64,000 bases of DNA from NCBI GenBank assembly GCA_001899315.1, contig MOYA01000001.1, forward strand, positions 372,001 to 436,000. The letters are read 5' to 3'. The position numbers and the translations under genes are program-made. The first letter of the stretch is position 1. Every line of letters begins with the position of its first letter. Of this stretch, positions 3,005 to 62,930 are shown piece after piece. This stretch comes from Candidatus Obscuribacter phosphatis (GTDB lineage: Bacteria > Cyanobacteriota > Vampirovibrionia > Obscuribacterales > Obscuribacteraceae). The notes below the pieces were generated by a model. It saw only the letters and a list, made by a program, of their open reading frames with translations. It was not told the DNA's origin and searched no databases.

Positions 3005-3141
3005 TTATAGGTATAGGTCCGTAACTGGATAATTGTCATCAGAATAATGGTTAGTTAAAGGATACAAGTTTACTAAAGGCAAATATGTTTAACTAATTAG
3101 GCGTAAAGCTTTATCTGATTTGTTGGCTTGAGGGGGACTGC

Positions 3142-4815
3142 ATGACAGGCGAATCGAACATACTGCCAAGGCTTTTGCAACTTCAAAAGAGTCTTTTCTC
3201 TTCTTTGAAGTTGAAAGAAGTACTCGATAACGCAGTCACACTCTTTACTGAACTAGCTGCCGGGGCTAAGGTGGCGGTTTTCCTTTGCGACAATGAAAGC
3301 ACTACTTTTAAGCTCATGGCCGCCAAGGGCTATAGTGATTCTTCTCTCGACCAGCTAAAAGTAGTGCCCTTTGCCATTGATAGCTTGCTCAAGGTGGCTT
3401 ATCAAAAACGGGCACCGCAAGCTTGCGCCGACCCGGCTCAGGCACCTGACTTTTCTGCCATGATCATGCGCAAAGAAGCCTCCAGTGGTCAAATCGCCCT
3501 ACCCCTGGTAAGCAATAACCTGCTTGTCGGAGCTGTTTTGCTTGATGTGAGCAATCCGCAATTGCTTGGCTTCCTCGATTTCTTGAAAGAAGTTGCCGAT
3601 CTTGTCGCTACGGCTATCTCAAATTCGATTTTGTTTGGCCGTTCTGAATATGAAAGAGAGCGGTTGAACACGCTCTACAAGACTTCCTGCGCCCTGAGCA
3701 GCAAAGCCTTGGAAGTGGGACCGGTTTTGAAAATTGCCGCCGATACTGCCTTGGTGCTGGGTAATACCCCCACCTGTGCCATTCTTTTGCTTGACGAAAG
3801 TGGTGATAAGTTCCAGCTGGCCGCCTTTAAGGGGCTTGATGGACCGAGTTTGAGTGATTTTGATATGTCGGCCAACCGCTCGATTGCGGCAAGCTGTCTT
3901 AAGGCCGGACAGACTGAAATATATGGCGATGGTCAAAGAGAGCCCCACGGTATGCCCAGAGCCATGAGTGGGCGTCCTTTCGCATCGGTCTTGGCTATTC
4001 CGCTTAGAGCCGGAGAGCGCAACATCGGAGTTCTAGAGGTCTTCTCCACCGAGTCACGCGCTTTCCACCGTGAGCATCAAGACTTGTTAGAGTCGCTGGC
4101 TGAGCAGGTTTCCAGCGCACTCAATATTGCTCTTTCGCATACTCCCGGGGGCGGCGGCTCTATACTTGACGCCCACACCGGTCTTGTCAATCGTGTGCAT
4201 TTCGAGTCTTGTCTGGTCAAAGAGCTGGAACGCTCGCAAAGACACAGTCACAATCTTTCGGTCATGCTTGTCGATATCGACCATCTTTCGCAGATTAACG
4301 ACATGCTTGGTCAGATGAAAGGTGATGATGCCATCAAGCATGTGGCCACGACAATTAAGAGTGGTTTGCGCGATATCGATATTCCCTCGCGCTTTGGGGG
4401 CGAGGAATTTGCCGTCATATTGCCTGAAACCTCGCAGGAGAACGCCCTGGAAGTTGCCGATAGGCTGAGGCAGAAGCTAAGGCAGTCGCCGGCTCCGGGT
4501 ATCGGACTGATTACTGTTTCGGTTGGTATCGCTTCTTTCCCCGGTAATGCCGAGAGTTTTGAGAATTTGATGCGTGATGCCGAACATGCCCTCAACATTG
4601 CCAAGTACGAAGGCCGTGACCGGGTGAAGTCGGCCCTTACCGGTGCCTATAAAGACAAGGGCGGCTTAAACTGGGACGAACTGGCCAAACAAGCTCGTAT
4701 GTCGGTTATTTCTGAGCGGCAGTCCAGACTGCAGAGCCGCCTTACTGCCACACCCGAGTATGCCACCTGGCTAGCCAAGCCCGGCTCGCTCGTCGGCAAG
4801 AAAAAGGGTCTGTAA
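3142..4815 (+). CDS. GAF-GAF-GGDEF diguanylate cyclase
   Basis: Predicted to make cyclic di-GMP from two GTP, controlled by two N-terminal sensory GAF domains. The 557-residue protein has GAF 1 at about residues 20-165, GAF 2 at about 180-335 and a GGDEF domain at about 345-505. The catalytic signature is GGEEF at residues 419-423, an active form. An RxxD inhibitory site (RDID, residues 410-413) stands exactly five residues upstream, so product feedback is expected. DIDHLSQIND supplies the metal-binding aspartates. No membrane segment is present, so it is cytoplasmic. An AGGGGG box supports ATG 3142. The roughly 50 residues after the GGDEF domain are not recognised. Of the three GGDEF proteins in this window, only this one has an intact catalytic motif. 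Confidence 0.92.
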   Translation: MTGESNILPRLLQLQKSLFSSLKLKEVLDNAVTLFTELAAGAKVAVFLCDNESTTFKLMAAKGYSDSSLDQLKVVPFAIDSLLKVAYQKRAPQACADPAQAPDFSAMIMRKEASSGQIALPLVSNNLLVGAVLLDVSNPQLLGFLDFLKEVADLVATAISNSILFGRSEYERERLNTLYKTSCALSSKALEVGPVLKIAADTALVLGNTPTCAILLLDESGDKFQLAAFKGLDGPSLSDFDMSANRSIAASCLKAGQTEIYGDGQREPHGMPRAMSGRPFASVLAIPLRAGERNIGVLEVFSTESRAFHREHQDLLESLAEQVSSALNIALSHTPGGGGSILDAHTGLVNRVHFESCLVKELERSQRHSHNLSVMLVDIDHLSQINDMLGQMKGDDAIKHVATTIKSGLRDIDIPSRFGGEEFAVILPETSQENALEVADRLRQKLRQSPAPGIGLITVSVGIASFPGNAESFENLMRDAEHALNIAKYEGRDRVKSALTGAYKDKGGLNWDELAKQARMSVISERQSRLQSRLTATPEYATWLAKPGSLVGKKKGL

Positions 4816-4845
4816 GCCATTGATTACCTGAATTCTTAAAAAAAT

Positions 4846-4875
4846 AGCAAAAGCTAGAGCAGACCGGCTTTTGCT
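4846..4875 (+). terminator. hairpin after the diguanylate cyclase gene, possible terminator
   Basis: AGCAAAAGC (4846-4854) pairs with GCTTTTGCT (4867-4875) across a 12-base loop, about 30 bases after the stop codon. No long T tract follows, so termination may be weak. It separates the diguanylate cyclase gene from the groE promoter region. Confidence 0.45.
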
Positions 4876-4950
4876 CTATACACTGAACCATGTGCAAAGA
4901 AGTGCGGCGATAGACGCCCTCTTTGCTTTAAATAGTTTGTCTTACACATT

Positions 4951-4972
4951 TTTGCGAACAGAGATTCGTAAA
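4951..4972. promoter_or_regulatory. inverted repeat upstream of groES, candidate operator
   Basis: TTTGCGAA (4951-4958) and TTCGTAAA (4965-4972) form an imperfect inverted repeat (7 of 8 pairs) with a 6-base spacer, ending two bases before the groES ribosome-binding site. The usual CIRCE operator of HrcA was looked for and is absent. The same half-sites (TGCGAA/TTCGTA) recur at 35479-35495 in front of the RND pump operon. The core CGAAC-N4-ATTCG also loosely resembles a Gram-positive LexA box. The binding protein is unknown. Confidence 0.35.
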
Positions 4973-4988
4973 CTAGGAGGATAGAACC

Positions 4989-5300
4989 TTGGCTACTGCA
5001 TCTGCATCTAAGCTTCAACTCAAACCGCTGGCCGACCGGGTTGTTGTCAAGAAACTCGAAGCCGAAGAGAAAACAGCGGGTGGCATCGTCCTTCCCGACA
5101 CCGCCAAAGAGAAGCCGCAGCAGGGCGAAATCCTGGCTGTAGGCGCCGGCCGCCTGGATGAGAAAGGCAACCGTCAGCCCCTCGAAGTCAAAGTGGGTGA
5201 CAAAGTTCTTTTCGCCAAATACTCCGGAACCGAAGTAAAAATCGACGGTCACGAATATCTCATTCTTGCTGAAAGAGACATTCTTGCTGTTATCGGCTAA
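4989..5300 (+). CDS. groES: co-chaperonin GroES
   Basis: Forms the heptameric lid that caps GroEL during ATP-driven protein folding in the cytoplasm. The 103-residue protein has the expected [13 protein letters not shown] start, the mobile-loop segment [22 protein letters not shown], the [21 protein letters not shown] strands and a C-terminal ERDILAVIG. The start is TTG at 4989: AGGAGG sits 8 bases upstream and no ATG or GTG fits. It is 49 bases ahead of groEL in the usual order, so both are one operon. The only visible candidate regulatory element is the inverted repeat at 4951-4972. Confidence 0.97.
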
Positions 5301-5307
5301 TTCTTAA

Positions 5308-6978
<1,671 letters not shown>

Positions 6979-7003
6979 ATCTAAGCATTTAGAGTCAGAT
7001 TAA

Positions 7004-7124
7004 AGAAAAGGGCGGAGTTTACTCCGCCCTTTTCTCTGTTATGTATAGAGAGGGGGCGGATGAATATCCGCCCTTTTCTCCGTTATCTATCTAGAGAGGG
7101 CGGAGTTTGCTCCGCCCTCTCTAG
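7004..7124. terminator. three tandem terminator-like hairpins after groEL
   Basis: Three perfect or near-perfect hairpins stand in a row with a shared GGGCGGA core. Hairpin 1 spans 7004-7035 (AGAAAAGGGCGGAGT and its complement). Hairpin 2 spans 7054-7073 (GGGCGGAT with ATCCGCCC). Hairpin 3 spans 7091-7124 with a 15-bp stem (CTAGAGAGGGCGGAG) and a TTTG loop. The first two run into CTTTTCT tracts. They probably back each other up in stopping strong groE transcription, and the symmetric stems would also block antisense reads. The shared core suggests they arose by local duplication. Confidence 0.75.
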
Positions 7125-7357
7125 ATTTCATACGATCTAGTTACCGTATCGACAGGACTCTATCTCAAGCAAACAACCGCTGTCACATTTTGATAGTGCG
7201 GATCGCCGCTTATGCCGTAGTGGATTTTTCGCTCGTTCGTCTCTGTCAATACTTCTATGTTAGCTCGGCTTTCCGATTTGCCTATTAGGACTAGCCTGTA
7301 ATTTTTTAAGAGCTTTCCTGTATTCTGTAATTTAATAGGGCAATAGCGGTAGGTCAT

Positions 7358-8179
7358 TTGGCTAAGAAAATAGCTTTACTAGCAATGGCATTTTGCATGG
7401 GCTGCCAGTCTGCCTATGCTGATGACCTCTTTAGTGTGGGCGGCGGCTCGCTTTTTAAGAAGCCGCTCTTTTCGGGCGACAGTCTCTTCAACAATAACGA
7501 AAGCCAAAAGAGCGGCAGTTCTGCCGCCGATACCGCCCGTCGTACCGAAGCAGAATTGCATGAATATGAGCAAAAAAAGGCAAGAGAAGATGCTATCCGC
7601 GAGCAAAAGATTGCTCGCAAAGAAATGCTCATGACCATCGACAATGAAATGTTCCGTCAGATGAAAGCTGTTGCTGATTGGCTCAACAACTTTGTCGTGA
7701 TGAATCATCGCTTCCCTGAGCAGTCTATCGGGGGCGAAGACCCATACAACCTTACGTTCGGTCAGAGTGATGAACTCAATATCGCCCTGCGTCAGATGAA
7801 CATACTGATTCCCAACAATCCTTACATGAATGCTGGAATTTATATGGTGCCCGGTGCAGATGTTGATCCTAATTTGCAGATATCAAATGAGAATCCGATG
7901 ACCGTTTTTCCTGATGATTCCAAATACAATCGCAATCGGGTGAAAGTAATTTACGACCGTTCGCTCAACCCGCAAGCTGTGGCCGATCTGGCTATCCATC
8001 CGCCTTATGACTGGCAGGGTTCGCCCGGTACGGTTGGTGTGGTTACCGATGGACTTTACTATTTCGTCGTTTGGGGCGCCGGCATTGACGGAAAACCAAT
8101 TAAAGATCCGATATCGGGAAACGTGCGCTTAGTGCTCGGCAGCTACCAAACTTGGGACCAGCCACCTCTGCAACCATAA
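7358..8179 (+). CDS. secreted hypothetical protein (273 aa)
   Basis: Not recognised. A signal peptide is clear: MAKKIALLAMAFCMGC followed by a cleavage site after AYA at about residue 22. The mature protein begins with a Gly/Ser/Phe-rich stretch, then a strongly charged coiled-coil segment (about residues 65-90, RRTEAELHEYEQKKARED), then a globular part with LNNFVVMNHRFPE, DPYNLTFGQSDELN and a final GSYQTWDQPPL. The start is TTG 7358, chosen because it gives the basic N-terminus of a signal peptide; the ribosome-binding site is weak. A CxGC pair in the signal might suggest a lipoprotein, but the lipobox is poor. It stands alone between groEL and pckG. Function unknown; export to periplasm or surface is the only safe inference. 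Confidence 0.75.
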   Translation: MAKKIALLAMAFCMGCQSAYADDLFSVGGGSLFKKPLFSGDSLFNNNESQKSGSSAADTARRTEAELHEYEQKKAREDAIREQKIARKEMLMTIDNEMFRQMKAVADWLNNFVVMNHRFPEQSIGGEDPYNLTFGQSDELNIALRQMNILIPNNPYMNAGIYMVPGADVDPNLQISNENPMTVFPDDSKYNRNRVKVIYDRSLNPQAVADLAIHPPYDWQGSPGTVGVVTDGLYYFVVWGAGIDGKPIKDPISGNVRLVLGSYQTWDQPPLQP

Positions 8180-8311
8180 GATTAATAACTGCTTATGGTT
8201 AACATTCAATATAACTTATATAAGTGCTAGTTCCTATAAGCCCTTAGAGGGATGGCCGCGCGCTTCAAATTCGGTAACCTATTGTCATTCTAGTATGGAG
8301 GCGCCCAGTAA

Positions 8312-10195
8312 ATGGGAAAGGAGCTTCGAGTGGAGATGGTCAGTGCCAAGCCTGGAAGTCAGATGATGAGTCAAAGTCAAGTTCGTGAAATCGGATATGA
8401 AGTAAAGAATGCAGCCGTGAAGGCATTTGTAGCTGAAGTGGCTCAAATGTGCGAACCAGATCGGATTGTTTATTGCGATGGTTCAGAAGCCGAACGCGAA
8501 CGCCTCCTGGCTGAAATGGTAGCTGAAGGCAAGCTAATCAAACTTAATCCGGAACTACGCCCCGGAAGTTATCTCGCCCGCTCGGACGAGTCTGATGTCG
8601 CCAGGGTCGAGGACCGCACCTTTATTTGTTCTGAAAAAGAAGAAGATGCTGGTCCGACCAATAACTGGATGGCCCCGGCCGATGCTAGAGCCAAGCTCAC
8701 TGCTCATTTTAAAGGCTGCATGCGTGGTCGCACCATGTATGTTATGCCTTTTTCGATGGGACCAATTGGTTCGCCCCTAGCTCAAGTGGGTGTGCAGGTA
8801 ACCGACTCGGCTTATGTCGTAGTCAGCATGGGTGTCATGACCCGCATGGGTAAAGCAGTTCTCGATAGACTAGGCGACAGCAATCATTTTGTCCGCTGTC
8901 TGCATTCAGTCGGGGCGCCGCTTGCTCCCGGCGAGGCTGATTCCACCTGGCCTTCCAACAAAGACACCAAGTACATCGTACATTTCCCTGAGACCAGAGA
9001 AATTTGGTCCTATGGTTCCGGCTACGGCGGTAACGCACTACTCGGTAAGAAATGCTTCGCCTTGCGCATCGCTTCTTCCATGGGTCTAAAAGACGGCTGG
9101 CTGGCAGAACATATGCTCATCCTCGGCATTGAATCGCCCAAAGGCGAGAAGAGCTACGTGGCTGCCGCCTTCCCCAGCGCCTGCGGCAAGACCAATCTAG
9201 CCATGCTGATTCCGCCTGCTTCTATGCCCGGTTGGAAAGTCACCACGGTTGGTGACGACATCGCCTGGATCAAGCCCGGTGCCGACGGCAGACTCTATGC
9301 CATCAATCCTGAAGCTGGATTCTTTGGTGTTGCTCCCGGTACTTCTTTGAAGACCAATCCCAATGCCATAAAGACCATCGAGAAAAATTGTGTCTTCACC
9401 AATGTGGCTCTTACTGCCGATGGTGATGTCTGGTGGGAAGGTCTCACTGATGAGCCGCCGGCCAACTTGATTGATTGGCAAGGACAGCCTTGGACCCCTG
9501 GTTGCGGACGCAAGGCGGCGCATCCTAATGCTCGCTTCACCGCACCGGTAAGTCAATGTCCCGCCCTCGATGAGAACTTCGACAAGCCTGAAGGCGTGCC
9601 GATTGATGCCTTCATATTTGGTGGCAGACGCTGCACCACAATGCCGCTTGTCTTTGAAGCAGCAACCTGGGCCGACGGCGTCTATATGGCTGCCACAATG
9701 GGTTCTGAAACCACCGCTGCCGCCATCGGCAAGGTCGGCGAAGTACGTCGTGATCCTTTTGCCATGTTGCCTTTCATGGGCTATCACATGGGTACTTACT
9801 TCCAGCACTGGCTCGACATGGGCGAGAAAGTGCCGGTTGCATCCCGCCCGCGCATTTACGGGGTCAACTGGTTCTTGCAGGGTGAGAAAGGCGAGTTCCT
9901 CTGGCCAGGCTTTGGCGAAAACATGCGGGTTCTCAAATGGATCTTCAACCGCGTTCGCGGTCAAGTTTCTGCCCAAGAAACTGAAATCGGCTTGATGCCT
10001 GCTTTTGAAGATATGGACTTCAATGGTCTAGATGAGATCACGCCCCAAGCCTTTGAGAAAATAACCAAGCTCGATAAAGAACTCTGGGCTCAGGAACTGG
10101 AATTGCACCAGGAATTGTTTGAAAAGTTGGCAGCTAGACTGCCTTCTGAATTCAACAAAAAGAGAGAGACTCTTCTGGCTAAGTTCAAGAACTAA
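8312..10195 (+). CDS. pckG: phosphoenolpyruvate carboxykinase (GTP)
   Basis: Interconverts oxaloacetate plus GTP with phosphoenolpyruvate, CO2 and GDP, linking the citric acid cycle to gluconeogenesis. The 627-residue length matches the GTP-dependent class rather than the shorter ATP class. Visible marks are the kinase-1 P-loop [13 protein letters not shown] (about residue 290), the kinase-2 segment VGDDIAWI, and the [22 protein letters not shown] stretch, here cited only in part. [15 protein letters not shown] and [16 protein letters not shown] are also typical. ATG 8312 has GGAGG 10 bases upstream. The gene is monocistronic, ending at a strong bidirectional terminator. Presence of this enzyme in a heterotroph suggests growth on acids or amino acids, in line with the acyl-CoA genes nearby. 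Confidence 0.96.
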
Positions 10196-10216
10196 GTTCT
10201 GTTTTTCACTACTTAA

Positions 10217-10253
10217 AAAGAGAAAGCCCGCTCACCGAGCGGGTTTTCTCTTT
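10217..10253. terminator. bidirectional intrinsic terminator after pckG
   Basis: AAAGAGAAAGCCCGCTC pairs with GAGCGGGTTTTCTCTTT around a 3-base loop, with A-rich and T-rich flanks. It lies between converging pckG and the minus-strand gene ending at 10291 and can act on both. Confidence 0.85.
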
Positions 10254-10290
10254 GTGAACTATCTATGTTCTTTCGGTGTTCTTTTGCTAC

Positions 10291-10875
10291 TTACTCTTCA
10301 GTTTTTTTGACTTTAGAGATAATTTTTCCCGAGGCTTCGGTCTGGGCTTCAATGCCCAAGACATTTTTCATATAACGGGCATTTGTTTCCCAGGCTTTAG
10401 GCGCCCTACCGACCAGATTTTTGAGATGCTGTCTGGCTGTTATGTAATGCTCGTCATCTTTATAGAGGTGGTCGAATATACCACCCATGCCCTTGTAATT
10501 GGTTCCCGCTTCTTCGCCTGTACCGGCTCTCAAGACGACCAGCCAGTGTCTGACGCATTCACCCATCATCTTGGGGTCTTTCTCGGTCTGGGTGCTTAGT
10601 TTCTTTTCTAAAACCTGGGCGATGATCAGATGCGCTTCTATCTCGTCTTCATCTAGACTGAGTGTCTTGCGCGCCAAAGTTAAGGCTTTGGAATAGGACT
10701 GATTTCTGAAAGCCGCCTGGGCTCGGGCTAGATAAGTGTGGGCGCTGACCTGACCCATACCGACAATCTCATCGTATTGAATGGTGGGCCTATCGGTTAA
10801 GTCATCTTTTTCTACCTGGGTGTTATTGTATGCAAGCACTATTGGAATTATTGAAAGCCAGGTTAGTATTTTCAT
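10291..10875 (-). CDS. exported protein with TPR-like helices
   Basis: Function unknown. The N-terminus MKILTWLSIIPIVLA is a short signal peptide or membrane anchor. After a polar stretch, residues about 55-130 look like tetratricopeptide helices (TYLARAQAAFRNQSYSKALTLA followed by DEIEAHLIIAQVLEKK), which usually bind protein partners. The C-terminal half has HLKNLVGRAPKAWETNARYM and a basic tail. ATG at 10875 has AAGGAAA upstream; an open extension of 13 residues is less likely. It converges with pckG and is divergent from the tetR gene at 10970, sharing a 94-bp region, so the TetR protein might control it. Confidence 0.65.
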   Translation of the reverse strand: MKILTWLSIIPIVLAYNNTQVEKDDLTDRPTIQYDEIVGMGQVSAHTYLARAQAAFRNQSYSKALTLARKTLSLDEDEIEAHLIIAQVLEKKLSTQTEKDPKMMGECVRHWLVVLRAGTGEEAGTNYKGMGGIFDHLYKDDEHYITARQHLKNLVGRAPKAWETNARYMKNVLGIEAQTEASGKIISKVKKTEE

Positions 10876-10952
10876 GGTGTTTCCTTTTTGACTAACAAAT
10901 TTTTGACTGCCCATTTTTTGAAAATCTTGAACTCAAGTCTAAAATTGTATCG

Positions 10953-10961
10953 TGGTATAAT
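10953..10961 (+). promoter_or_regulatory. extended -10 promoter for the tetR gene
   Basis: TGGTATAAT is a perfect extended -10 element (TGn plus TATAAT). It ends only 8 bases before ATG 10970, so transcription should begin at or within about 3 bases of the start codon, giving a leaderless mRNA. No Shine-Dalgarno sequence is present. No good -35 stands at 17 bases, as expected for an extended -10 promoter. Confidence 0.65.
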
Positions 10962-10969
10962 TGCAAATA

Positions 10970-11548
10970 ATGTCAGAGAAGTCAATTACAATAGGTAGGC
11001 GTGAGCGCAAAAGGCTTGAAACCAGGCAGCAGATACTGACTGCGGCGGCTTCACTATTTGCCACAAGGGGCTATGAAAATACATCTATAGATGACATTGC
11101 CGCATTGGCCGATATTGCCAGAGGCACGATTTTTTATAACTTCGAATCGAAAGAGTCCATCGTCTTTGAATTAAGAGTGCAAGCTTGGGGGCAATTTGCT
11201 GCCGCCGCCCTAGAAAAGCAGCAGTCGGGGTTGAAAGCCATCGATTGCATCAGCCAGATGATTTTGCACTGTGTCAAATGGTGCGAAGACAATCCTGAAC
11301 TGGCTAAGGTTTTCTTTATTCCAAAAGGACCCTTACCCGAGGCCTTGATTCCCTCACCGCTGATTGAGGCGGCCCAGCATGAAGGCAGTCTCAGAGCCGA
11401 TCTTGATCCTGAATGGCTTGGTCATCTCTTCACTTTTTTGATCTTGCACGGGCAAGGGCTTTCCACCAGCGGCAGTTTTGGCCAATCGGGCAGTGAGCCG
11501 CATATCAACAAATGGACTCAGTCTTTGCTATCGGGCATAGCGCCCTGA
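10970..11548 (+). CDS. TetR/AcrR family transcriptional regulator
   Basis: One-component repressor of the TetR family. Residues about 10-60 form the DNA-binding domain: RQQILTAAASLFATRGYENTS, cited in part, then IDDIAALADIARGTIFYNFESKE, with the recognition helix around RGTIFYNF. Phe replaces the more usual Tyr in YYHF/YFYF. The ligand-binding C-terminal half is not specific enough to name an inducer. ATG 10970 was chosen over the in-frame TTG at 10961, because that TTG overlaps the -10 box. The 3' end overlaps convergent ispF by 31 bases. The nearest divergent gene is the TPR-like exported protein, a possible target along with the gene itself. Confidence 0.9.
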   Translation: MSEKSITIGRRERKRLETRQQILTAAASLFATRGYENTSIDDIAALADIARGTIFYNFESKESIVFELRVQAWGQFAAAALEKQQSGLKAIDCISQMILHCVKWCEDNPELAKVFFIPKGPLPEALIPSPLIEAAQHEGSLRADLDPEWLGHLFTFLILHGQGLSTSGSFGQSGSEPHINKWTQSLLSGIAP

Positions 11549-12018
11549 CAGATAAGCACCACAGCCTGGCAAACAACTGCATGTTCTTGACCAGCGGCAT
11601 CTTGCTTTTCGTTTGTCTTGGCTTTGACCGAAACGGCGTCTAGAGCAAGACCTAGATTATCTGCAATTGAACGGCGTATCGGCTCTATATGAGGTCTCAG
11701 CTTTGGCTTTTCTAAAATTATCGTCGTATCGATATTGATAATCTCATAGCCCTGACTCTTCAGCAGGCTGTGGGTTTCGCCCAGCAGCTTGAGGCTTTCG
11801 ATATCTTTATAGCGATTGTCGCTGGGTGGAAAATGCTTACCGATATCCCCCAGGGCCGCAGCACCGAGAAGGGCATCGATAATGGCATGTAAGAGGGCGT
11901 CGCCGTCTGAGTGTCCAAGCGAGCCTTTGGCTGAATCTATTTTGAGACCGCCGAGCATGAGGTTGCGACCTTCTACCAGTTGGTGAATGTCGTAACCCTG
12001 ACCAATTCTGAGCTTCAA
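11518..12018 (-). CDS. ispF: 2-C-methyl-D-erythritol 2,4-cyclodiphosphate synthase
   Basis: Fifth step of the MEP isoprenoid pathway, cyclising CDP-methylerythritol 2-phosphate with release of CMP. The 166-residue length is normal. The N-terminus RIGQGYDIHQL carries the zinc-binding Asp and His. SDGDALLHAIIDALLGAAALGDIGKHFPPSD is the family signature, cited here as the SDGDALLHAI and GDIGKHFPPSD halves. The C-terminal KAKTNEK motif is also present. It lies 11 bases downstream of the biotin carboxylase gene on the same strand, so the two are probably cotranscribed. The 3' end overlaps convergent tetR by 31 bases. Confidence 0.96.
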   Translation of the reverse strand: MKLRIGQGYDIHQLVEGRNLMLGGLKIDSAKGSLGHSDGDALLHAIIDALLGAAALGDIGKHFPPSDNRYKDIESLKLLGETHSLLKSQGYEIINIDTTIILEKPKLRPHIEPIRRSIADNLGLALDAVSVKAKTNEKQDAAGQEHAVVCQAVVLICQGAMPDSKD

Positions 12019-12029
12019 ATCTACCAGCC

Positions 12030-13802
12030 TTATTTTGCGAGGACGAAAAGCAGGGTGCCGTTATCCACTGTCTGACCGGCTTTTACTTTGATTTCCTGCA
12101 CGGCACCATCGATATCGGCCACTATATCCGATTCCATTTTCATGGCTTCGAATATCGCTAGTCTTTGCCCTTTCTTCACCCGCGTACCGGTTTCCACTTC
12201 AATTTGCTTGACCAGTCCATGCATTGTCGCTTCGATTTTTCCGGTTTCGTGGCTGTGAATATGCTCACTCTTCTTAGCCGGTTTGGTCGCCACTTTGCTC
12301 GTGGTCTTTTCTTCAAGCAATTCAGTCACTTGCACTTTGAAGACTTTTTGATTGACGTCTACTTCAAAGTTGCGGGCTTCACCGCGCACTGGTGCTTTGT
12401 TTTCGCCTGTCGGTGAGACGGCGGCGGCTGTCTGCGGTGCAGGCGCTGCTGTCGCCTTGAACGAGCGCTTCATAAAGTCTTGCTCGACATAGGTGGTATA
12501 GACCTTGCCTTCGATAAAGCCTTGGTCTTCCAGCATTGCCAGATGGAAAGGAATAGTGGTGGCCACTCCTTCTATTTTGAAGTGCTTCAAGGCGCAGAGG
12601 GTTCTTTCAATGGCTTCGGCTCTGGTTCTTCCCCAGACCACTAATTTGGCAAGCAATGAGTCATAAAAGGGCAAAACCTGATAACCCTGGTAGCAGGCTG
12701 TGTCTACTCTCACCCAAGGATGATGGGGCAGTTCGAAGCGCGTTAAGGTACCTGGGCTGGGCATAAAATTGCGAGAGGGATCTTCGGCATTGATTCGGCA
12801 TTCTATGGCATGCCCGTGTTGGCTCACTTCCTCCTGGCTGAAGGAAAGCGGTGCCCCCGCTGCTAATTTGATCTGTTCTTTGACGATGTCTATGCCGGTT
12901 ATGGCTTCAGTAATGGGGTGTTCCACCTGAATGCGTGTGTTTACTTCCAAGAAGTAGAAATCTTCACCCGAGACCATACACTCTACAGTACCGGCTGAGG
13001 TATAACCAAGGGCGGTGGCACCCTTGACGGCTGCTTCGGTCAGTCTTCTGCGCAAGTCTTGGCTTAGATGCGGGGCCGGTGTCTCTTCCAAAAGCTTCTG
13101 GTGTCTTCTCTGGCTAGAACAGTCTCTCTCATAGAGGTGCAAGACCTTACCGCTTTCGTCGGCGAGAATCTGCACTTCTATGTGGCGGGGATGATCAAGA
13201 TATTTTTCCACATAGACTTCGCCTGAACCAAAATAGCTGGCTCCTTCTCTCTGGGCGCCGGCCAGCGCTTGTTCTACATCTTCGGCTTTCCTGACCACCC
13301 GCAGTCCGCGTCCGCCACCGCCGGCACTGGCTTTGATGGCGATGGGATAACCATATTTCTCGCCTAGGGCTATTACTTCTGCGGCGGTGGAAACCGGATC
13401 GGTCGTACCTGGAACCACCGGCACACCGGCTTGTTCCATCACTCTTCTCGACTCGATTTTGGAGCCCATTTTGTGAATTACTTCTGGTTTTGGTCCGATG
13501 AATTTTATGCCTGCTTCGCCGCAAAGTTTGGCAAATTCGGCATTCTCAGAAAGAAAACCATAGCCTGGATGAATTGCATCGGCGCCCGCTCTTTTGGCTA
13601 TATCGATAATCTGGGCGCCGTCAAGATAGACCCTGGCCGGCTGACCGTTCAACTGCCAGGTCTCGTCTGCCATTTTGACGTGTTTCGACTCGCGGTCCGG
13701 CTCAGAGAAGATCGCTACAGTTTTTATGCCTAGTTCTCGGCAAGCCTGAATGACTCGCACTGCTATTTCGGAGCGGTTGGCGATAAGAACTTTCTGGAAC
13801 AT
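12030..13802 (-). CDS. biotin carboxylase fused to biotin carboxyl carrier domain (acyl-CoA or pyruvate carboxylase alpha subunit)
   Basis: Carboxylates its own biotin using bicarbonate and ATP, then hands CO2 to a separate carboxyltransferase. Residues 1-450 are biotin carboxylase: FQKVLIANRSEIAVRVI at the start, the glycine-rich ATP loop KASAGGGGRGLRVV, ERDCSSQRRHQK, and the FLEVNTRIQVEHPITE signature. A linker of about 60 residues rich in Ala, Pro and Lys follows. Residues about 520-590 are a biotinyl domain with EAMKME, whose lysine takes biotin. This fused layout occurs in acetyl/propionyl-CoA carboxylase alpha subunits and two-subunit pyruvate carboxylase. The carboxyltransferase subunit is not in the window. 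Divergent from the 3-hydroxyacyl-CoA dehydrogenase at 14053, which favours an acyl-CoA role. Confidence 0.9.
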   Translation of the reverse strand: MFQKVLIANRSEIAVRVIQACRELGIKTVAIFSEPDRESKHVKMADETWQLNGQPARVYLDGAQIIDIAKRAGADAIHPGYGFLSENAEFAKLCGEAGIKFIGPKPEVIHKMGSKIESRRVMEQAGVPVVPGTTDPVSTAAEVIALGEKYGYPIAIKASAGGGGRGLRVVRKAEDVEQALAGAQREGASYFGSGEVYVEKYLDHPRHIEVQILADESGKVLHLYERDCSSQRRHQKLLEETPAPHLSQDLRRRLTEAAVKGATALGYTSAGTVECMVSGEDFYFLEVNTRIQVEHPITEAITGIDIVKEQIKLAAGAPLSFSQEEVSQHGHAIECRINAEDPSRNFMPSPGTLTRFELPHHPWVRVDTACYQGYQVLPFYDSLLAKLVVWGRTRAEAIERTLCALKHFKIEGVATTIPFHLAMLEDQGFIEGKVYTTYVEQDFMKRSFKATAAPAPQTAAAVSPTGENKAPVRGEARNFEVDVNQKVFKVQVTELLEEKTTSKVATKPAKKSEHIHSHETGKIEATMHGLVKQIEVETGTRVKKGQRLAIFEAMKMESDIVADIDGAVQEIKVKAGQTVDNGTLLFVLAK

Positions 13803-14052
13803 GCTCTTCTCCTTTTTAGGCCGTAAGAAAGTATGTAAAGTATATTCGCTGGCGCCCGGCTCATCGTGCCCAGTTTTATTATAGAAAGTTGATCATTTTT
13901 CTATATCAATTTAGGGGGCGCGCCAGTTGACCTTCCTGCCTTCGGCTAAGCTTCTGAACAGTTGTCATAGTGTTGCTTGCTAAGGCAGCCTAGGTTTTGG
14001 GGTGGTACGATAGCCCTGTCAGTGTGTTCTGTCTGTCTATAAGGAGTATCCA

Positions 14053-14919
14053 GTGGCAGGCTCTTGTAGTTTCCCCTCGGTTTTTATTGCCGGTAGCGGG
14101 TTCATGGGTTCGGCGATTGCCTTCCTCATTGCATCTAAAACCAGTGCTCGCGTTAATGTCTATGATATTTCGGAAGAGCAGTTGGCTAAAGCCGTACAGA
14201 CAGTGGAAAAGTTCGGCAAATCTTCGGTTGACAAAGGTTTCTTGACCGTTGAGCAATTCCAAGATCTAAAGGGGCGTATTCACACAACCTCTTCCGAGCA
14301 GCTGGCTGCGCATAGCGACCTAGTCATCGAAGCAATCGCCGAGAACTTAGAGATAAAGAGAGATCTCTTCAAAAGGTTAGATCGCATTTGCAAGCCCGAG
14401 ACGATTTTTGCTTCCAATACTTCCAGCTTGCCCATAACCGCCCTGGCTGCCGTCACCAAAAGATCTAAACAGTTCATCGGCATGCACTTTTTCTCTCCCG
14501 CTCATATCATGAAGCTGGTTGAGCTGATTAGCGGTCTCGATACTTCAGAAGAAACAACCGCTAAAGTACGTGCTTTTGGTGAAGAGCTGGGCAAAACCAT
14601 CATCCATTCAAAGGATTTTCCCGGCTTCATTACCACCCGCCTTGGTCTAGTCCTCATCAATGAAGCGGCCTTCGCCCTCATGGAAGGACTTTCCACCGCC
14701 AAAGAGATAGATACAGGTATGACCCTTGGTTATAACCATCCGATGGGTCCGCTTGCTCTGGCTGATTTTATTGGTCTAGATATATGTTTGCATATCCTCG
14801 AAACACTCTACGAGGGCTTTGGTGATACAAAGTATCGCCCCTGTCCTTTGATCAGGCAGTTGGTCACCGCCGGGCATCTCGGCAAGAAGACCGGCCGGGG
14901 CTTTTACGAGTATAACTAA
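14053..14919 (+). CDS. 3-hydroxyacyl-CoA (3-hydroxybutyryl-CoA) dehydrogenase
   Basis: NAD(P)-dependent oxidation of 3-hydroxyacyl-CoA to 3-ketoacyl-CoA, or the reverse, in fatty acid or butyrate metabolism. The 288-residue length is that of the short stand-alone enzymes. The Rossmann start is VFIAGSGFMGSAIA (GxGxMG), NAD contacts follow, then the catalytic-domain motifs ASNTSSLPIT, IGMHFFSPAHIMKLVE (catalytic His in this segment), and NHPMGPLALADFIGLD, with a final GRGFYEYN. GTG 14053 has AAGGAG at 14040-14045. It leads a tight run with the glycosyltransferase (14-base gap) and hfq. Together with the acyl-CoA dehydrogenase at 46242 it suggests acyl-CoA oxidation or butyrate-type metabolism. 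Confidence 0.92.
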   Translation: MAGSCSFPSVFIAGSGFMGSAIAFLIASKTSARVNVYDISEEQLAKAVQTVEKFGKSSVDKGFLTVEQFQDLKGRIHTTSSEQLAAHSDLVIEAIAENLEIKRDLFKRLDRICKPETIFASNTSSLPITALAAVTKRSKQFIGMHFFSPAHIMKLVELISGLDTSEETTAKVRAFGEELGKTIIHSKDFPGFITTRLGLVLINEAAFALMEGLSTAKEIDTGMTLGYNHPMGPLALADFIGLDICLHILETLYEGFGDTKYRPCPLIRQLVTAGHLGKKTGRGFYEYN

Positions 14920-14933
14920 GGCGGGCAAGCTCT

Positions 14934-16184
14934 ATGCTTCTATGTTTGATGCTCTTCAATACCCTCTTCATCATTGCTCTTTACGGGCTCACCTTGGCTT
15001 TTTATCTCAAGCTCAAGCCGGTTGAGAGCTGTCAATCTTTAGGGCGAGATGCTTCAGGCCAAGACTATCCGCTTGTTTCGGTGATTGTGCCGGCCCGCAA
15101 CGAAGAAGGCAAAATTGGTCGCTGTATCGAGTCCTTGCTCAATCAGAACTATCCCAATTTTGAGCTTGTCGTAATAGACGATCGTTCCACTGACTCCACC
15201 GGTGATATCATCGCCTCTTATGCCGCCCGTGACAGCCGCATCAAGTTCGTCAAAGGTAAAGACGCTCCCAGTGGCTGGATAGGCAAATGTAATGCCCTCG
15301 CCCATGCCGTCGGCTATGCCTCCGGCGACTGGTTCGTCTTTACAGACGCCGATACCTGTCATCATCCAAATTCGGTTGCCGACGCCGTCGCTTACGGCAT
15401 CAAGAACAAGATCGATCTCATTTCTTTCTTGCCCATGCAAGAGTTGGGCAGCTTCCCCGAGCGCTTGATTATGCCGGTTCTACTTAGCGCCTTCCTCATC
15501 GGCGACCCCTTCCATGCCGTCAACAATCCGCGTGATTCCAGAGCCTATGCCCATGGGCAATATATTCTTTGCCGTCGCAGTTCCTACCTGGCTGTGGGCG
15601 GACACCGCAGTGTGCGTGATGAAATCGTTGAAGACCATGCTTTGGCTCGGGTCTTTAAAGAGAAAGGCTATAAAATTGAAGTCGCCGACGGCAAGACGCT
15701 CTATTCGGTGCGTATGTACACCGATCTAGTCAGTCTCTGGCATGGTTGGACCAAAAATCTTTATAGCTTTATCGACAGTAAGCCCAGCAATTTGCTTGTC
15801 ATTTTGCTCATGATCAATACAGTGGTGGTGGCGCCCTGGTTGTGGCTCGGCTATGTGGGCTGGCAGTGGATAACCGGCGAGTTCACCAATCTTGTCATTC
15901 AGCTGTCTCTGCTTCTTATCGTTCAATTCGGCACCCTCATGCTCTGGCTGAGACGCACATCGTGTCACCACGACGGCATCAAGTGGTATCACTTCTTCTT
16001 GACGCCATATGGTTGTTTGGCGGTTTCCGCCCTTTATCTGCATGCCGCTTATTTGGTGCATAGCGGCGGTCAAGTCAATTGGAAAGGTCGCCGTTATGTG
16101 GTCAACACCAGGCAGACCATCGAACCGACTGATGGCGCCGAGTCTATCGAAGCTAAGTTGATATCGCGAGATGCTGCCGACTAA
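14934..16184 (+). CDS. membrane family 2 glycosyltransferase (HpnB/CrtQ-like)
   Basis: Predicted to transfer a sugar from a nucleotide donor to a lipid or carotenoid-like acceptor at the membrane. An N-terminal membrane helix (residues 1-24) precedes the GT-A domain: LVSVIVPARNEEGKIGRCIES, cited in part, VVIDDRSTDSTGDI, then GWIGKCNALAHAVGYASGDW and the DxD-type metal site TDADT at about residue 140. The GW-x-GK pattern before DADT is typical of the hopanoid-linked HpnB and carotenoid CrtQ group. EIVEDHALARVFKEKGY supplies the ED catalytic-base pattern. Three C-terminal membrane helices follow. The stop codon overlaps the hfq start (TAATG), so the genes are translationally coupled. The acceptor is unknown. 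Confidence 0.82.
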   Translation: MLLCLMLFNTLFIIALYGLTLAFYLKLKPVESCQSLGRDASGQDYPLVSVIVPARNEEGKIGRCIESLLNQNYPNFELVVIDDRSTDSTGDIIASYAARDSRIKFVKGKDAPSGWIGKCNALAHAVGYASGDWFVFTDADTCHHPNSVADAVAYGIKNKIDLISFLPMQELGSFPERLIMPVLLSAFLIGDPFHAVNNPRDSRAYAHGQYILCRRSSYLAVGGHRSVRDEIVEDHALARVFKEKGYKIEVADGKTLYSVRMYTDLVSLWHGWTKNLYSFIDSKPSNLLVILLMINTVVVAPWLWLGYVGWQWITGEFTNLVIQLSLLLIVQFGTLMLWLRRTSCHHDGIKWYHFFLTPYGCLAVSALYLHAAYLVHSGGQVNWKGRRYVVNTRQTIEPTDGAESIEAKLISRDAAD

Positions 16185-41152: not shown

Positions 41153-41223
41153 AAGGTGTACTCTCAAGCTTGCTTGTGGTATCGTCTGCGGTGCTAAGGT
41201 CGGCTTGCTTGGTCTTGACCTAG

Positions 41224-41364
41224 ATATTTCTAAAGGATTTTGCTGAAGAGATTTCTGAAGAGATTTTTGAAAGATATTTCTGAGGATATTTCTGAAAGAT
41301 TTTTCTGAGGAGATTTTTGAAAAATCTTCTGAAAGAATTTTCTGAAGATAATTCTGGGAGATTT
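41224..41364. repeat. degenerate 12-13 bp tandem repeat, about 11 units
   Basis: Drifted copies of a unit like GATTTTTCTGAAGA fill most of the gap between the converging genes ending at 41152 and 41373. Units vary from 11 to 14 bp, with A/T and T-run length differences typical of slippage. The array is strongly purine/pyrimidine patterned (runs of T, then GAAGA). No open frame crosses it. Confidence 0.8.
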
Positions 41365-41372
41365 TATGGCAG

Positions 41373-42165: not shown

Positions 42166-42714
42166 ATGTTTTGCCCTTTTTGCAATCACCGAGAAAGCAG
42201 AGTGCTTGAATCTCGCCTGACCAACGATAATTCGGTCCGGCGCAGACGCGAGTGCGAATCTTGCGGTAAGCGCTTTACCACCTATGAAAAGCTGGAAGTG
42301 ATTCAGTTTCTCGTGGTGAAGCGCTCCGGCACGCGCGATACCTATTCTAGAGAGAAGCTGAGAGCTGGTATTTCTAGAGCCTGTGTCAAAACCAATGTCA
42401 GCGCCGAGCAAATCGACAACCTAGTCGACTCTGTTGAGAACGAGCTGATTGCCGCCGGGCGGCGCGAGATTTCTTCTTCTTTGTTGGGTGAATTGGTACT
42501 TTCCAAATTGAGCGGGCTCGACCAAGTGGCTTATGTGCGCTTCGCCTCGGTCTATAGGGCTTTTCAGTCGGTGGATGATTTTATCGCCGAACTCAATCAA
42601 TTGAAAGATTCATTGAAAGACTCCGAAACTCGCTCAAAACAAATATTAGAGAGGGCTGAGCTCGAAGAGCGCATGTCGAAGAATGCTACTATGGGCGGTG
42701 GCAAGTCCCGCTAA
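42166..42714 (+). CDS. nrdR: transcriptional repressor NrdR
   Basis: Represses ribonucleotide reductase genes in response to nucleotide levels. The N-terminus MFCPFCNH with CESCGKRFTTYEKLE is the zinc ribbon, four cysteines, and residues about 49-139 form the ATP-cone (VVKRSGTRDTYSREKLRAGI, then EISSSLLGELVLSKLSGLDQ, VAYVRFASVYRAF). Length is 182 residues, about 30 longer than usual because of a charged C-terminal tail ending GGGKSR. The last codons (GGC AAG TCC CGC TAA) are the first unit of the 10-bp repeat that follows. Probably leaderless. No nrd genes are in the window. Confidence 0.95.
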   Translation: MFCPFCNHRESRVLESRLTNDNSVRRRRECESCGKRFTTYEKLEVIQFLVVKRSGTRDTYSREKLRAGISRACVKTNVSAEQIDNLVDSVENELIAAGRREISSSLLGELVLSKLSGLDQVAYVRFASVYRAFQSVDDFIAELNQLKDSLKDSETRSKQILERAELEERMSKNATMGGGKSR

Positions 42715-42810
42715 GTCCATCTAAGTCCATCTAAGTCCCGCTAATTCCCGCTAATTCCCTCTAAGTGCCTCTATGTGCCTCTAGGTGCTGCTAAGTCCCG
42801 CTAAGTGGCA
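42701..42810. repeat. 10-bp tandem repeat, 11 units, beginning in the nrdR stop region
   Basis: Eleven units in exact 10-bp register, consensus CTAAGTCCCG, with drift in the last four bases. The first unit (GCAAGTCCCG) encodes the final residues of NrdR and the second starts with its stop codon. Later units differ by one to four bases. The period equals one DNA helical turn. Confidence 0.95.
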
Positions 42811-57357: not shown

Positions 57358-57410
57358 CACCGCTCTTGGTGTATATACTTTGGGCTTGTTTTTGTGCCAT
57401 GTCTTATACG

Positions 57411-57518
57411 AGTAAGATGCTAGGCAAAAATACAAGGCAAAAATACAAGACTAAATTGCAAGTAAAATGCAAGGCAAAAATACAACTAAGATGCAAGGCG
57501 AAAATACAAGTAAATTCC
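57411..57518. repeat. composite 24-bp tandem repeat
   Basis: Alternating 13-bp (AAGGCAAAAATAC) and 11-bp (AAGTAAGATGC) blocks make about four composite 24-bp units, ending about 55 bases before the permease ATG 57574. It fills half of the 216-bp gap after the gene ending at 57357. Confidence 0.85.
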
Positions 57519-57573: not shown

Positions 57574-59025
57574 ATGCTAACTGGATTGCTTTGCCTGGCA
57601 GTGTTTTTTGTAATGGCCCTCGCTATGTACGGGCGGCGCATTTCGGCTTTGCTTGCTTTGCCCCTCATGGCTATCGCCATTGCCCTCATCGGTGGTGTCG
57701 AGGGTAAGGTCATCGTAAAAGATGTGTTGAGCGGCGGTGCCGTGAAGTTGCACAATGCCTACACTGCCACCATGTTTGGTGCGATGCTTGCCGAGTTGGT
57801 CAACAAGCACGGCATGGCTCGTTCGCTGGTGCGCTTCGTGGCTGAGTTTGCCGGTGATAATCCCTACTTGCTAGGCGTCTTTCTTACCCTGGTTACCGCC
57901 CTGCTCTTCTCGACACTGGGTGGTCTTGGCGCCGTGATTATGGTCGGCACCATTATCTTGCCGGTCATGCTCTCACTTGGTATTCCTGCCCTATGTGCCG
58001 CCGGTCTCTTCCTCTTTGGCATTTCACTGGGTGGCATGTTCAACTTGACCAATTGGCAGCTTTATACCGATGTACTCAAAATAGACCAACCTACGATTAT
58101 TTCTTTTGTGGTGCCCTTCTCGCTCATCTTGGGCTTGGTTATTTTGCTGTTTTTGCTAATCGAGCTTAAAAAGAAAGGCAATCTACTTTATTTCTTGGGC
58201 GGGCTGCTCTGTCTTTCAGCGCTCTATGTGCCTCTCAGCGGCTACAATCCGGTCTCTCCTCAATCTTCCAGCGCAGGCTCAGGCGCAACTGCAACTGCCG
58301 GCGCCAGTGCTTCTGCCAATGCCTCTGCTGCCGGTGCCGACATCTACACTTACGCTCTCTATTTTGTCTTGGCGCTAATTGCTTATGCATTCTATCGAGC
58401 CTTCTCAAAGAAAGAAAGCATGCCCGCCATCAGCCTGCTTACACCGGTCATTCCGCTTGTGTTCGTTTTGTTCTTGCACTGGGACATAATTCCAGCCTTT
58501 ATGATGGGCATCACATATGGTGTGCTCACCACCTGGAAAAAAGACTCGGTCAACATACTGACTCGTGCCATCATAGATGGTACCGCCAATGTGATTCCGG
58601 CTGTACTTCTGATGATGGGCATCGGCATGCTCATCACTGCCGTTATGGACAAAGGCGTCTCCGAAGCGATTGCTCCCCTGATCAAGGCGGTGGTGCCAAG
58701 CACGCCCCTAATGTACATTCTTGGCTTTACGATGCTCGCCCCTTTTGCCCTCTATCGCGGTCCTCTCAGTTTGTGGGGCATGGGCAGCGGTTTGGTCACC
58801 TTGGTGGTCAATCTCACTACACTCTCGGCGCAATCTGTGATGAGCATGCTCATGTCGGTCGGTCAGGTGCAGGGCGTTTGCGACCCCACCAACACCCAGA
58901 ATATTTGGATAGCCACTTATCTTGGTGTCGATACTCAGGTCATTCTCAAGAAAACATTACCCTATGCCATGCTCGCTGCTTCGCTCGGTCTTAGCCTGGC
59001 TGTCTTGAAAGGGTTTGTGCATTAA
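57574..59025 (+). CDS. membrane permease, probable organic-anion transporter
   Basis: About 12 membrane helices in 483 residues (for example LTGLLCLAVFFVMALAMYG, LGIPALCAAGLFLFGISLGG, FVLALIAYAFYRAF). Glycine-rich loops in the first half (FSTLGGLGAVIMVGTIILPV) and in the second (ALYRGPLSLWGMGSGLVTLV) suggest two repeated halves, as in citrate/GntP-like carriers, but no family is certain. A non-membrane Ala/Ser/Gly loop of about 25 residues sits near residue 235. The stop overlaps the start of the hydantoinase gene (TAATG), so they are coupled. It probably imports the substrate of that enzyme. ATG 57574 has no clear ribosome-binding site. Confidence 0.7.
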   Translation: MLTGLLCLAVFFVMALAMYGRRISALLALPLMAIAIALIGGVEGKVIVKDVLSGGAVKLHNAYTATMFGAMLAELVNKHGMARSLVRFVAEFAGDNPYLLGVFLTLVTALLFSTLGGLGAVIMVGTIILPVMLSLGIPALCAAGLFLFGISLGGMFNLTNWQLYTDVLKIDQPTIISFVVPFSLILGLVILLFLLIELKKKGNLLYFLGGLLCLSALYVPLSGYNPVSPQSSSAGSGATATAGASASANASAAGADIYTYALYFVLALIAYAFYRAFSKKESMPAISLLTPVIPLVFVLFLHWDIIPAFMMGITYGVLTTWKKDSVNILTRAIIDGTANVIPAVLLMMGIGMLITAVMDKGVSEAIAPLIKAVVPSTPLMYILGFTMLAPFALYRGPLSLWGMGSGLVTLVVNLTTLSAQSVMSMLMSVGQVQGVCDPTNTQNIWIATYLGVDTQVILKKTLPYAMLAASLGLSLAVLKGFVH

Positions 59026-61223
59026 TGGCTGAGCGCAACATCAGAATCGGCATCGATGTGGGTGGCACTTTCACCCATGCCGTGGCTGTCGACGGTAATT
59101 CTTCCACCTTGGTGGGTAAGGCGAAAGTGCCGACCAGTCACTCAGCGCCTGAAGGCGTCGCCCGCGGTATAGTCGATGCCCTCGCTCTCTTGTTGAAGAC
59201 ATGCGGCATAGCTCCCGAGAATGTTTCTTTCATCGCCCATAGTACCACTCAAGCCACCAACGCTCTGCTCGAAGGCGATGTCGTCAAAGTGGGCGTGCTC
59301 GGAATGAGCGGCAAGGGGCTCGCCTGGTTAGCCTCGCCTTCCACGGCACTTGGTCGCATACCGCTTGCCGCCGGCGTCTTTATGGAAACCAGCCATCGCT
59401 TTATCGCAGTTGATGAAAGCATCTCTGAAAGCGCATTTGAAGGCGAAATCGAGAAACATTTGCTCTCCATGAAAGATGAGGGCTGTCAGGCTTTCGCTAT
59501 TTCAGACGCATACAGCGTCGATGATGCTTCGCGGGAAGAAACAGCTATGGCAGTGGCTGCACGCCTCGGTTTGCTTGCCACCTCTGGCTCTGAGGTCTCT
59601 AGGCTCTACGGGCTGAAAGTGCGCACCCGCACCGCCGCTATTAATGCCGGCATCTTGCCCAAGATGATCGAATCGGCAAATATGACAGAAACCTCGGTGC
59701 GCCAAGCCGGAATCACCGCCCCGATTATGATCATGCGCAGCGACGGCGGCGTCATGGACCTGGCTTCGATGCGCAAACGTCCCATTCTTTCCATACTATC
59801 CGGTCCGGCTGCCGGAGTCGCCGCCGCCATGATGTTTCTGCGCATCTCAGATGGTGTCTTTTTAGAAGTCGGCGGCACCTCTACCGATATCTCGGCTATT
59901 GCCAGCGGACGAGCCATGGTGCGCTCAGCTGAGATTGGCGGACACAAGGTCTATATGCGCACCCTCGATGTGCGCACAATCGGGGTTGCCGGTGGTTCGC
60001 TTTTGCGGCTCTCTAAAGACGACATCATCGACGTCGGTCCAAGAAGCGCTCACATAGCCGGTCTTAAATATGCAGCCTTCCCCGCAGAAAATAGCGACAG
60101 CAAAAGCTATAAGGTAAAGTTGGTCAAGCCACTGCCGAAAGATAGCGATGACTATTTGGCTCTTGATACCACCGGTGGTGTGGCTCATACTCTTACACCA
60201 ACATGTGCTTCTAATCTGCTCGGGCTTGTTCCCCAAGGCGATTGTGCCGTCGGCGACATCGAGAGCATCAAGAGCGGCTTCAGTGCCTTGAGCAGCTACT
60301 TAAGCAAATACGGGCAAGGGGAAGAGGCTTCCAAACAGTTGGCTTCTCGTTTGCTTGATATTGCCGCCCATAAATGCATACCCACAGTCAAGGCGCTCAT
60401 TGCCGAAAACAAGCTCGACCCCGATCTTACTCTCTTGGTGGGCGGCGGCGGTGGTGCGGCTGCCATTGTGCCCTATCTCGCTAAAGTGATGAAGCTTGAT
60501 CACACTATCGCCCAAGACGCCGATGTGATTTCCGCCATCGGTGTGGCGATGGCGCTCATCCGCGAGACAATCGAAAAGCAAGTGGCGGACACTTCGGCTC
60601 AAGACGCCATTCTTGCCTTGCGGGCCGAAGCCGTGCGTTCGGTGGAAGCCATGGGGGCCGACCCTGCCACAGTAGAAGTGCATATTGAAATAGACAGCAA
60701 GACCAGTATTGTGCGTGCCACTGCTTGCGGTGCGGCTAAAGCGGGCGGTGCAAACGAACAAAGTGCCCTAGATGATGAAGGGCGTAAATCGAAAGCGGCG
60801 CAGTCTATGAGAGTGGAACCGCAGCATACCCAAGAAGTCTGTCGCTCTCATTTCTTCACCATATACGGTGCTAATGTCAGTCGCTCGGGCAGTTTCTTTT
60901 CTATGCCGATGCCCTTTTTGCGTTCAACCAGCTTTGCCTTGCGTGTGGTTGATCGCGAAGGCGTGATCAGGCTCTCAGCCAGAGCCGGAGCCGCTCGGGC
61001 TTGTACTCGCGACGGTGCCGAATCGGCCATTCGCGAGCTAATCGAAGCTCATGCCACCTGGGGCGATGCCGGTAAAGTAATTCCCGACATCTTGCTTTTG
61101 GTGGGTGCCAGGGTGGTAGATTTATCTGGCTTGCTAAACGACGAACAAGTCTTGGCTTTAGCCCGCTCTGAACTTGCCAGCCAACCGCCGCAAGCCGAAG
61201 TGCTGGTCGTAGCGAAGTTCTGA
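59025..61223 (+). CDS. hydantoinase/oxoprolinase-family protein (HyuA-like)
   Basis: ATP-dependent hydrolase of the hydantoinase A/oxoprolinase family. It begins IRIGIDVGGTFTHAVAVDG, the actin-like ATP site, then AHSTTQATNALLEGDVVKVG, ILSGPAAGVAAAMMFL and FLEVGGTSTDISAIASG, typical of the family, with a glycine-rich LLVGGGGGAAAIVPYL later. It has 732 residues; residues 560-610 include an insertion-like polar stretch. The partner HyuB is absent. With the preceding permease it suggests uptake and hydrolysis of a cyclic amide (hydantoin, 5-oxoproline or similar), though substrate specificity cannot be read. The last codons form the first unit of a 22-bp repeat. Confidence 0.8.
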   Translation: MAERNIRIGIDVGGTFTHAVAVDGNSSTLVGKAKVPTSHSAPEGVARGIVDALALLLKTCGIAPENVSFIAHSTTQATNALLEGDVVKVGVLGMSGKGLAWLASPSTALGRIPLAAGVFMETSHRFIAVDESISESAFEGEIEKHLLSMKDEGCQAFAISDAYSVDDASREETAMAVAARLGLLATSGSEVSRLYGLKVRTRTAAINAGILPKMIESANMTETSVRQAGITAPIMIMRSDGGVMDLASMRKRPILSILSGPAAGVAAAMMFLRISDGVFLEVGGTSTDISAIASGRAMVRSAEIGGHKVYMRTLDVRTIGVAGGSLLRLSKDDIIDVGPRSAHIAGLKYAAFPAENSDSKSYKVKLVKPLPKDSDDYLALDTTGGVAHTLTPTCASNLLGLVPQGDCAVGDIESIKSGFSALSSYLSKYGQGEEASKQLASRLLDIAAHKCIPTVKALIAENKLDPDLTLLVGGGGGAAAIVPYLAKVMKLDHTIAQDADVISAIGVAMALIRETIEKQVADTSAQDAILALRAEAVRSVEAMGADPATVEVHIEIDSKTSIVRATACGAAKAGGANEQSALDDEGRKSKAAQSMRVEPQHTQEVCRSHFFTIYGANVSRSGSFFSMPMPFLRSTSFALRVVDREGVIRLSARAGAARACTRDGAESAIRELIEAHATWGDAGKVIPDILLLVGARVVDLSGLLNDEQVLALARSELASQPPQAEVLVVAKF

Positions 61224-61342
61224 CATAATTGAAGCGAAGCTTTGACTTATCTGAAGCCAAGTTCTTACCTAATTAGAACCAAGTCCTGACCCAATTAGAA
61301 CCAAGTCCTGACCCAATTAGAACCAAGTTCTGATTTAATTGA
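61211..61342. repeat. 22-bp tandem repeat, six units, spanning hyuA stop to the DUF309 start
   Basis: Six exact-length 22-bp units; the first (61211-61232) contains the last codons and the TGA stop of the hydantoinase gene, and the last ends 2 bases before ATG 61345. Two middle units are identical, and the others differ at 3-8 positions. Consensus halves are AACCAAGTCCTGA and CCCAATTAG. The whole gap is made of this repeat. Confidence 0.95.
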
Positions 61343-61344
61343 AA

Positions 61345-61773
61345 ATGATTGAAGTACAGCCAAACTCTCAAGAACACGCCGCTCTTTTTGCCCTCGGCTT
61401 GAAGCAGTTCAGTGAAGGGCAATATTTTGAATGTCATGAAACCTGGGAAGCCTATTGGAAGCCCCTGGAAGCTGGAGTGGAGAAAAATCTCGTGCAGGGC
61501 TTGATTCAGGTCTCGGTGGCTTATCATCACTGGCACAACGGCAATGTCAAGGGTGCCCTGCGGCTTGTCGAGCGGGCGCTGCCTCGCATCACCGAAGCCT
61601 TGCCGGTTTCCATGGGGCTCGATTTGACGAGTTATTTCGACAAGCTGCTGAAAGAACACGCCAAACTGCAGGCGCTGCAAAGCTCTAAGCTTGAGGACGG
61701 TGCCACTGGTGAAAGCGGCGAATTAGCAGATCTGCGACCAGATGCGCCTCGACTTATCCAGCTTGAAAAGTAG
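61345..61773 (+). CDS. DUF309 family protein
   Basis: Small helical protein with the DUF309 signature: LKQFSEGQYFECHETWEAYW, then LVQGLIQVSVAYHHWHNGNV, GALRLVERALPRI. These motifs suggest metal binding via the CHE and HxxWHxGN histidines, though no function is proven. ATG 61345 is chosen; TTG 61339 is two codons earlier. No ribosome-binding site is visible because the upstream sequence is the 22-bp repeat, whose last unit abuts the ATG. This protein is common in cyanobacteria and many heterotrophs. Confidence 0.82.
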   Translation: MIEVQPNSQEHAALFALGLKQFSEGQYFECHETWEAYWKPLEAGVEKNLVQGLIQVSVAYHHWHNGNVKGALRLVERALPRITEALPVSMGLDLTSYFDKLLKEHAKLQALQSSKLEDGATGESGELADLRPDAPRLIQLEK

Positions 61774-62818: not shown

Positions 62819-62930
62819 GCCAGGCAATTAGCCAAAGCAAGTGCTAGCCGAACAAGTACTAGCCAAAGCAAGTCTAGTTAAGTAGTTATCCTGATAGCTA
62901 TCCAAATGTCCTGATAGCCACCCAAAGACC
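62819..62930. repeat. 14-20 bp near-tandem repeats after the response regulator gene
   Basis: About four units like GCCAAAGCAAGTGCTA (62819-62876) are followed by two units of about 20 bases sharing TCCTGATAGC (near 62890-62930). They occupy about half of the gap between the stop at 62818 and the tRNA promoter. Confidence 0.7.

Follow-up and report, generated by a model that had tools for sequence, protein, structure and literature searches.

A 22-bp tandem array between a hydantoinase-like gene and a DUF309 gene of Candidatus Obscuribacter phosphatis, probably a lineage-specific minisatellite

Between a hydantoinase-like gene and the DUF309 gene that follows it in Candidatus Obscuribacter phosphatis, a 22-bp unit is repeated from the last codons of the first gene almost to the start codon of the second. 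This placement raises the question of whether the array acts on the downstream gene, as a switch or a spacer of variable length, or whether it is repeat growth that the site happens to tolerate.

The array and the genes on either side

The window analysed is the whole 64,000-nt stretch at positions 372,001 to 436,000 of contig MOYA01000001.1, and coordinates below are counted from its first base. The source genome is 5.5 Mb in 8 contigs, with the array lying within a 3.2-Mb contig, and its nearest relatives among the genomes compared are metagenome-assembled genomes of Obscuribacterales/Melainabacteria (non-photosynthetic cyanobacteria). The features of the locus are as follows.

59025..61223, plus strand: hydantoinase/oxoprolinase-like gene, 732 aa (open reading frame; Pfam Hydantoinase_A 5.1e-55, Hydant_A_N 1.7e-25)
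61215..61344, plus strand: 22-bp minisatellite, with full units from 61215, 61237, 61259, 61281 and 61303 (Tandem Repeats Finder, unit table, shuffle control)
61281..61324, plus strand: units 4 and 5, identical (distance matrix of units)
from 61325, plus strand: sixth unit, continuing into the DUF309 ATG
61345..61773, plus strand: DUF309 gene, 142 aa from the ATG (open reading frame; Pfam DUF309 5.7e-23; relative)

Tandem Repeats Finder reports the array at 61215-61340 with a period of 22 and 5.7 copies, within the size of roughly 10-60 bp for head-to-tail minisatellite units. Self-identity at lag 22 is 86/110, far above chance, as the maximum over 10,000 shuffles and lags 8-44 was 53. The first-pass annotation had set the register at 61211-61342 as six 22-mers, and these do follow one another without indels; it was also right that unit 1 holds the last codons and TGA of the hydantoinase gene (AAG TTC TGA, Lys-Phe-stop), that unit 6 ends 2 bases before the DUF309 start (61342 against an ATG at 61345-61347) and that the entire gap between the genes is repeat. 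Its further statement that every unit carries a stop pattern holds in part: five of the six units have TGA, but unit 3 has TTA, which is not a stop, and the copied TGA changes frame from unit to unit because 22 is not divisible by 3.

Units 4 and 5, being identical, are probably the most recent duplication in the array. Unit 3 has 3 mismatches to this pair, units 1, 2 and 6 are 5 to 10 positions away from the remaining units, and unit 2 alone has 6-10 mismatches to the others. A homogeneous centre with diverged edges is the usual picture of a growing minisatellite. A pattern search of the genome allowing 3 mismatches found the unit nowhere outside 61211-61342, and an origin in a phage or plasmid was set aside after no match was obtained in phage or plasmid records. 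A literature search for DUF309 together with hydantoinase also returned no match.

The junction in relatives and the start of the DUF309 gene

Two congeneric relatives have the same gene pair, and neither has the array. In the closest (L035, from genome G002), the hydantoinase is 95% identical over its best segment and the DUF309 protein 82%, and the junction AAGTTTTGAATTGGTAACTTATTGATAATGATGGAA has 19 bp from TGA to ATG; in the other (L036, from genome G001) the gap from stop to start is below 19 bp. The corresponding distance is 121 bp here, and the mapped junction is 103 bp longer than in L035. As both relatives are free of the array at this junction, it was most likely expanded in the present lineage. 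The end of the hydantoinase gene, Val-Ala-Lys-Phe-stop, is kept in all three genomes, including the two without an array, and the unit was therefore probably seeded from the gene end and copied outward.

The start context of the DUF309 gene had been proposed to be a product of the repeat, and the comparison overturns this. The array-free L035 has a start context (TTGATAATGATGGAA) lacking both the repeat and a Shine-Dalgarno site, and shares it with the context found here (TTGAAAATGATTGAA); the bases before the ATG read TTG-AAA-ATG here and TTG-ATA-ATG in L035, and an alternative in-frame TTG at 61339 is likewise present in the relative. As the context is common to a junction that has no repeat, the repeat did not create it. 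The accompanying remark that a Shine-Dalgarno site is missing stands: the array contains no AGGA, GGAG or GAGG ahead of the ATG. Genes of this kind are common in the genome: a 4-base Shine-Dalgarno match precedes 62/181 crudely called genes, compared with 21/181 at a control position, and only about one third of predicted genes show one. TAACTGA direct repeats (PMC4679880) are known from Beggiatoaceae and some Cyanobacteria, where they precede start codons, and the present array resembles them in consisting of direct repeats just upstream of a start without a Shine-Dalgarno site. The two differ in that TAACTGA is one heptamer dispersed over many loci whereas the 22-bp unit occurs at one locus only, and arrays in this genome lie nearer to stops than to starts.

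Tandem arrays across the genome

The array is one of many. A survey of 1.436 Mb of the genome, using a crude codon-usage gene finder and periods below 55, gave 144 intergenic tandem arrays, or about 10 (10.2) per 100 kb, against 4.7 per 100 kb in 214 kb of G002 and 0-3.3 in 12 other genomes, for which about 60 kb each makes the samples small; block shuffles yield 0-1 arrays. Among the 144, the hydantoinase-DUF309 array ranks 24th in score and about 16th in copy number. Almost every intergenic array for which the relative has a mapped counterpart exceeds that counterpart in length, a comparison biased by the arrays having been picked in this genome. The other intergenic arrays of the window, at 41222-41365, 42703-42806, 57406-57514 and 62829-62926, have unrelated units, and those at 42703, 57406 and 62829/62889 are 72-94 bp longer than their G002 counterparts. 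A dispersed repeat family was ruled out as the source of the array, its unit being unique and the 144 arrays sharing few 10-mers (18 pairs, against 9 when shuffled).

The arrays are unevenly placed. Convergent gene gaps hold 39 where 20.9 are expected by length (p 8e-5), while divergent gaps hold 20 against 39.2 expected (p 2e-4); a smaller first sample of 264 kb had none of 27 arrays in divergent gaps, which became a depletion with the larger sample and better gene calls. In co-directional gaps the array is nearer to the upstream stop in 59/84 cases (p 3e-4), with 22 overlapping or touching the stop. Periods are divisible by 3 in 175/180 coding arrays and 65/144 intergenic ones; the latter is somewhat above one third, possibly through missed coding ends, and intergenic periods concentrate at 12-18 bp (G000:C1:1-1436000). 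This genome-wide pattern fits frequent tandem duplication followed by selection against harm.

Among known systems, bacterial intergenic minisatellites, or VNTR loci as used in MLVA typing, share with the array direct head-to-tail units of 10-60 bp, lineage specificity, diverged edge units and unrelated units at each locus. They differ in their copy-number polymorphism between strains, whereas the comparison here, with one genome of the species, is between lineages, and in that this genome holds many loci relative to the sampled relatives. In Borg elements (PMC9879509), as here, arrays are numerous, arose independently of one another, evolve fast and occur in coding as well as intergenic DNA; the present arrays lie on a contig of a bacterial genome. 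Literature searches for Obscuribacter with tandem repeats and for cyanobacterial STRR repeats gave no match.

The hydantoinase-DUF309 array is of little weight alone, and the genome background is of slightly greater interest: intergenic tandem arrays are several-fold more numerous in this one bacterial lineage than in the relatives sampled, the majority of those compared are absent or shorter in the closest relative, and their placement maps tolerance of insertion at gene 3' ends against intolerance in promoter-holding gaps. The lineage could be a natural system for the study of tandem repeat birth.

Explanations for the array, and neighbouring sequence

The array is very likely a lineage-specific intergenic minisatellite, one that slippage or recombination generated at a site able to tolerate it, and probably ordinary tolerated repeat growth as opposed to a genetic switch. 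This rests on its presence here and absence in two relatives, its diverged edges and identical centre, and the abundance in the genome of mostly unrelated arrays biased to gene 3' ends. A stretch of about 22 bp, spanning the 3' end of the hydantoinase gene together with the short spacer that followed, would have been duplicated after the split from the nearest relative compared, and replication slippage or unequal recombination would then have added about 103 bp; we infer this class of mechanism, a gain here as opposed to a double loss, and tolerance as opposed to selection. Boundaries at a stop codon on one side and 2-4 bases short of a start codon on the other might point to a function, but 13 arrays of the genome occupy more than 85% of their own gap.

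A phase-variable or tunable element, in which copy number would set DUF309 translation or transcription through spacing or coupling, is quite improbable. The array does put 121 bp between stop and start where the relatives have at most 19 bp, and variable-copy tandem repeats in promoters are reported in M. tuberculosis (PMC12817950), resembling the present case in lying upstream of a gene; yet a scan of the array for sigma-70-like promoters gave no site, arrays are under-represented across the genome in divergent gaps, where promoters have to lie, and the start context is common to the array-free relative. A sigma-70-type promoter or a terminator in the array was also rejected, the only matches being terminator-like, on the minus strand and near shuffle level. 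Even less probable is a structured RNA or protein-binding repeat, in which matching 5-base arms of the consensus AAGTTCTGACCTAATTAGAACC (GTTCT...AGAAC) would pair into hairpins or serve as operator-like half-sites at a spacing of about two helical turns. The arms are mismatched in units 4 and 5 and lost in unit 6, the unit is absent from the rest of the genome, there is no Rfam match and the predicted fold is unexceptional (z-score -1.5; 14/200 shuffles equally good), on which grounds an RNA element such as a structured leader was rejected. Tandem repeats misassemble easily and the read type of the 8-contig assembly is unstated, but an assembly artefact is extremely improbable for an array of just 130 bp inside a 3.2-Mb contig, with units that are mostly distinguishable and of a divergence hardly expected from an artefact.

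With tolerated minisatellite growth as the preferred explanation, the main plausible consequence is the longer distance from stop to start, which could weaken translational coupling of the DUF309 gene to the upstream stop. A broader proposal, that unusually active tandem duplication in the lineage makes minisatellites behind stops and that operon spacing evolves fast enough to tune expression, is unlikely; the hydantoinase-to-DUF309 distance would be one example of it.

In the surroundings, a block of about 37 kb (G000:C1:598603-636000) has 96-98% DNA identity to G002, where most neighbouring aligned blocks have 77-93%, which points either to recent exchange or to strong conservation of the genes in the block; the search for intergenic arrays gave none there. 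Just past the window end, G000:C1:438910-451917 (L048, about 2910-15917) contains a 28-bp repeat, GTTCACTGCCGCACAGGCAGCTCAGAAA, in several stretches that have a period of 60 bp. These stretches look like CRISPR arrays, with repeats that we take to resemble those of type I-F, and the syntenic contig of G002 carries a different array with a period of 71 to 73.
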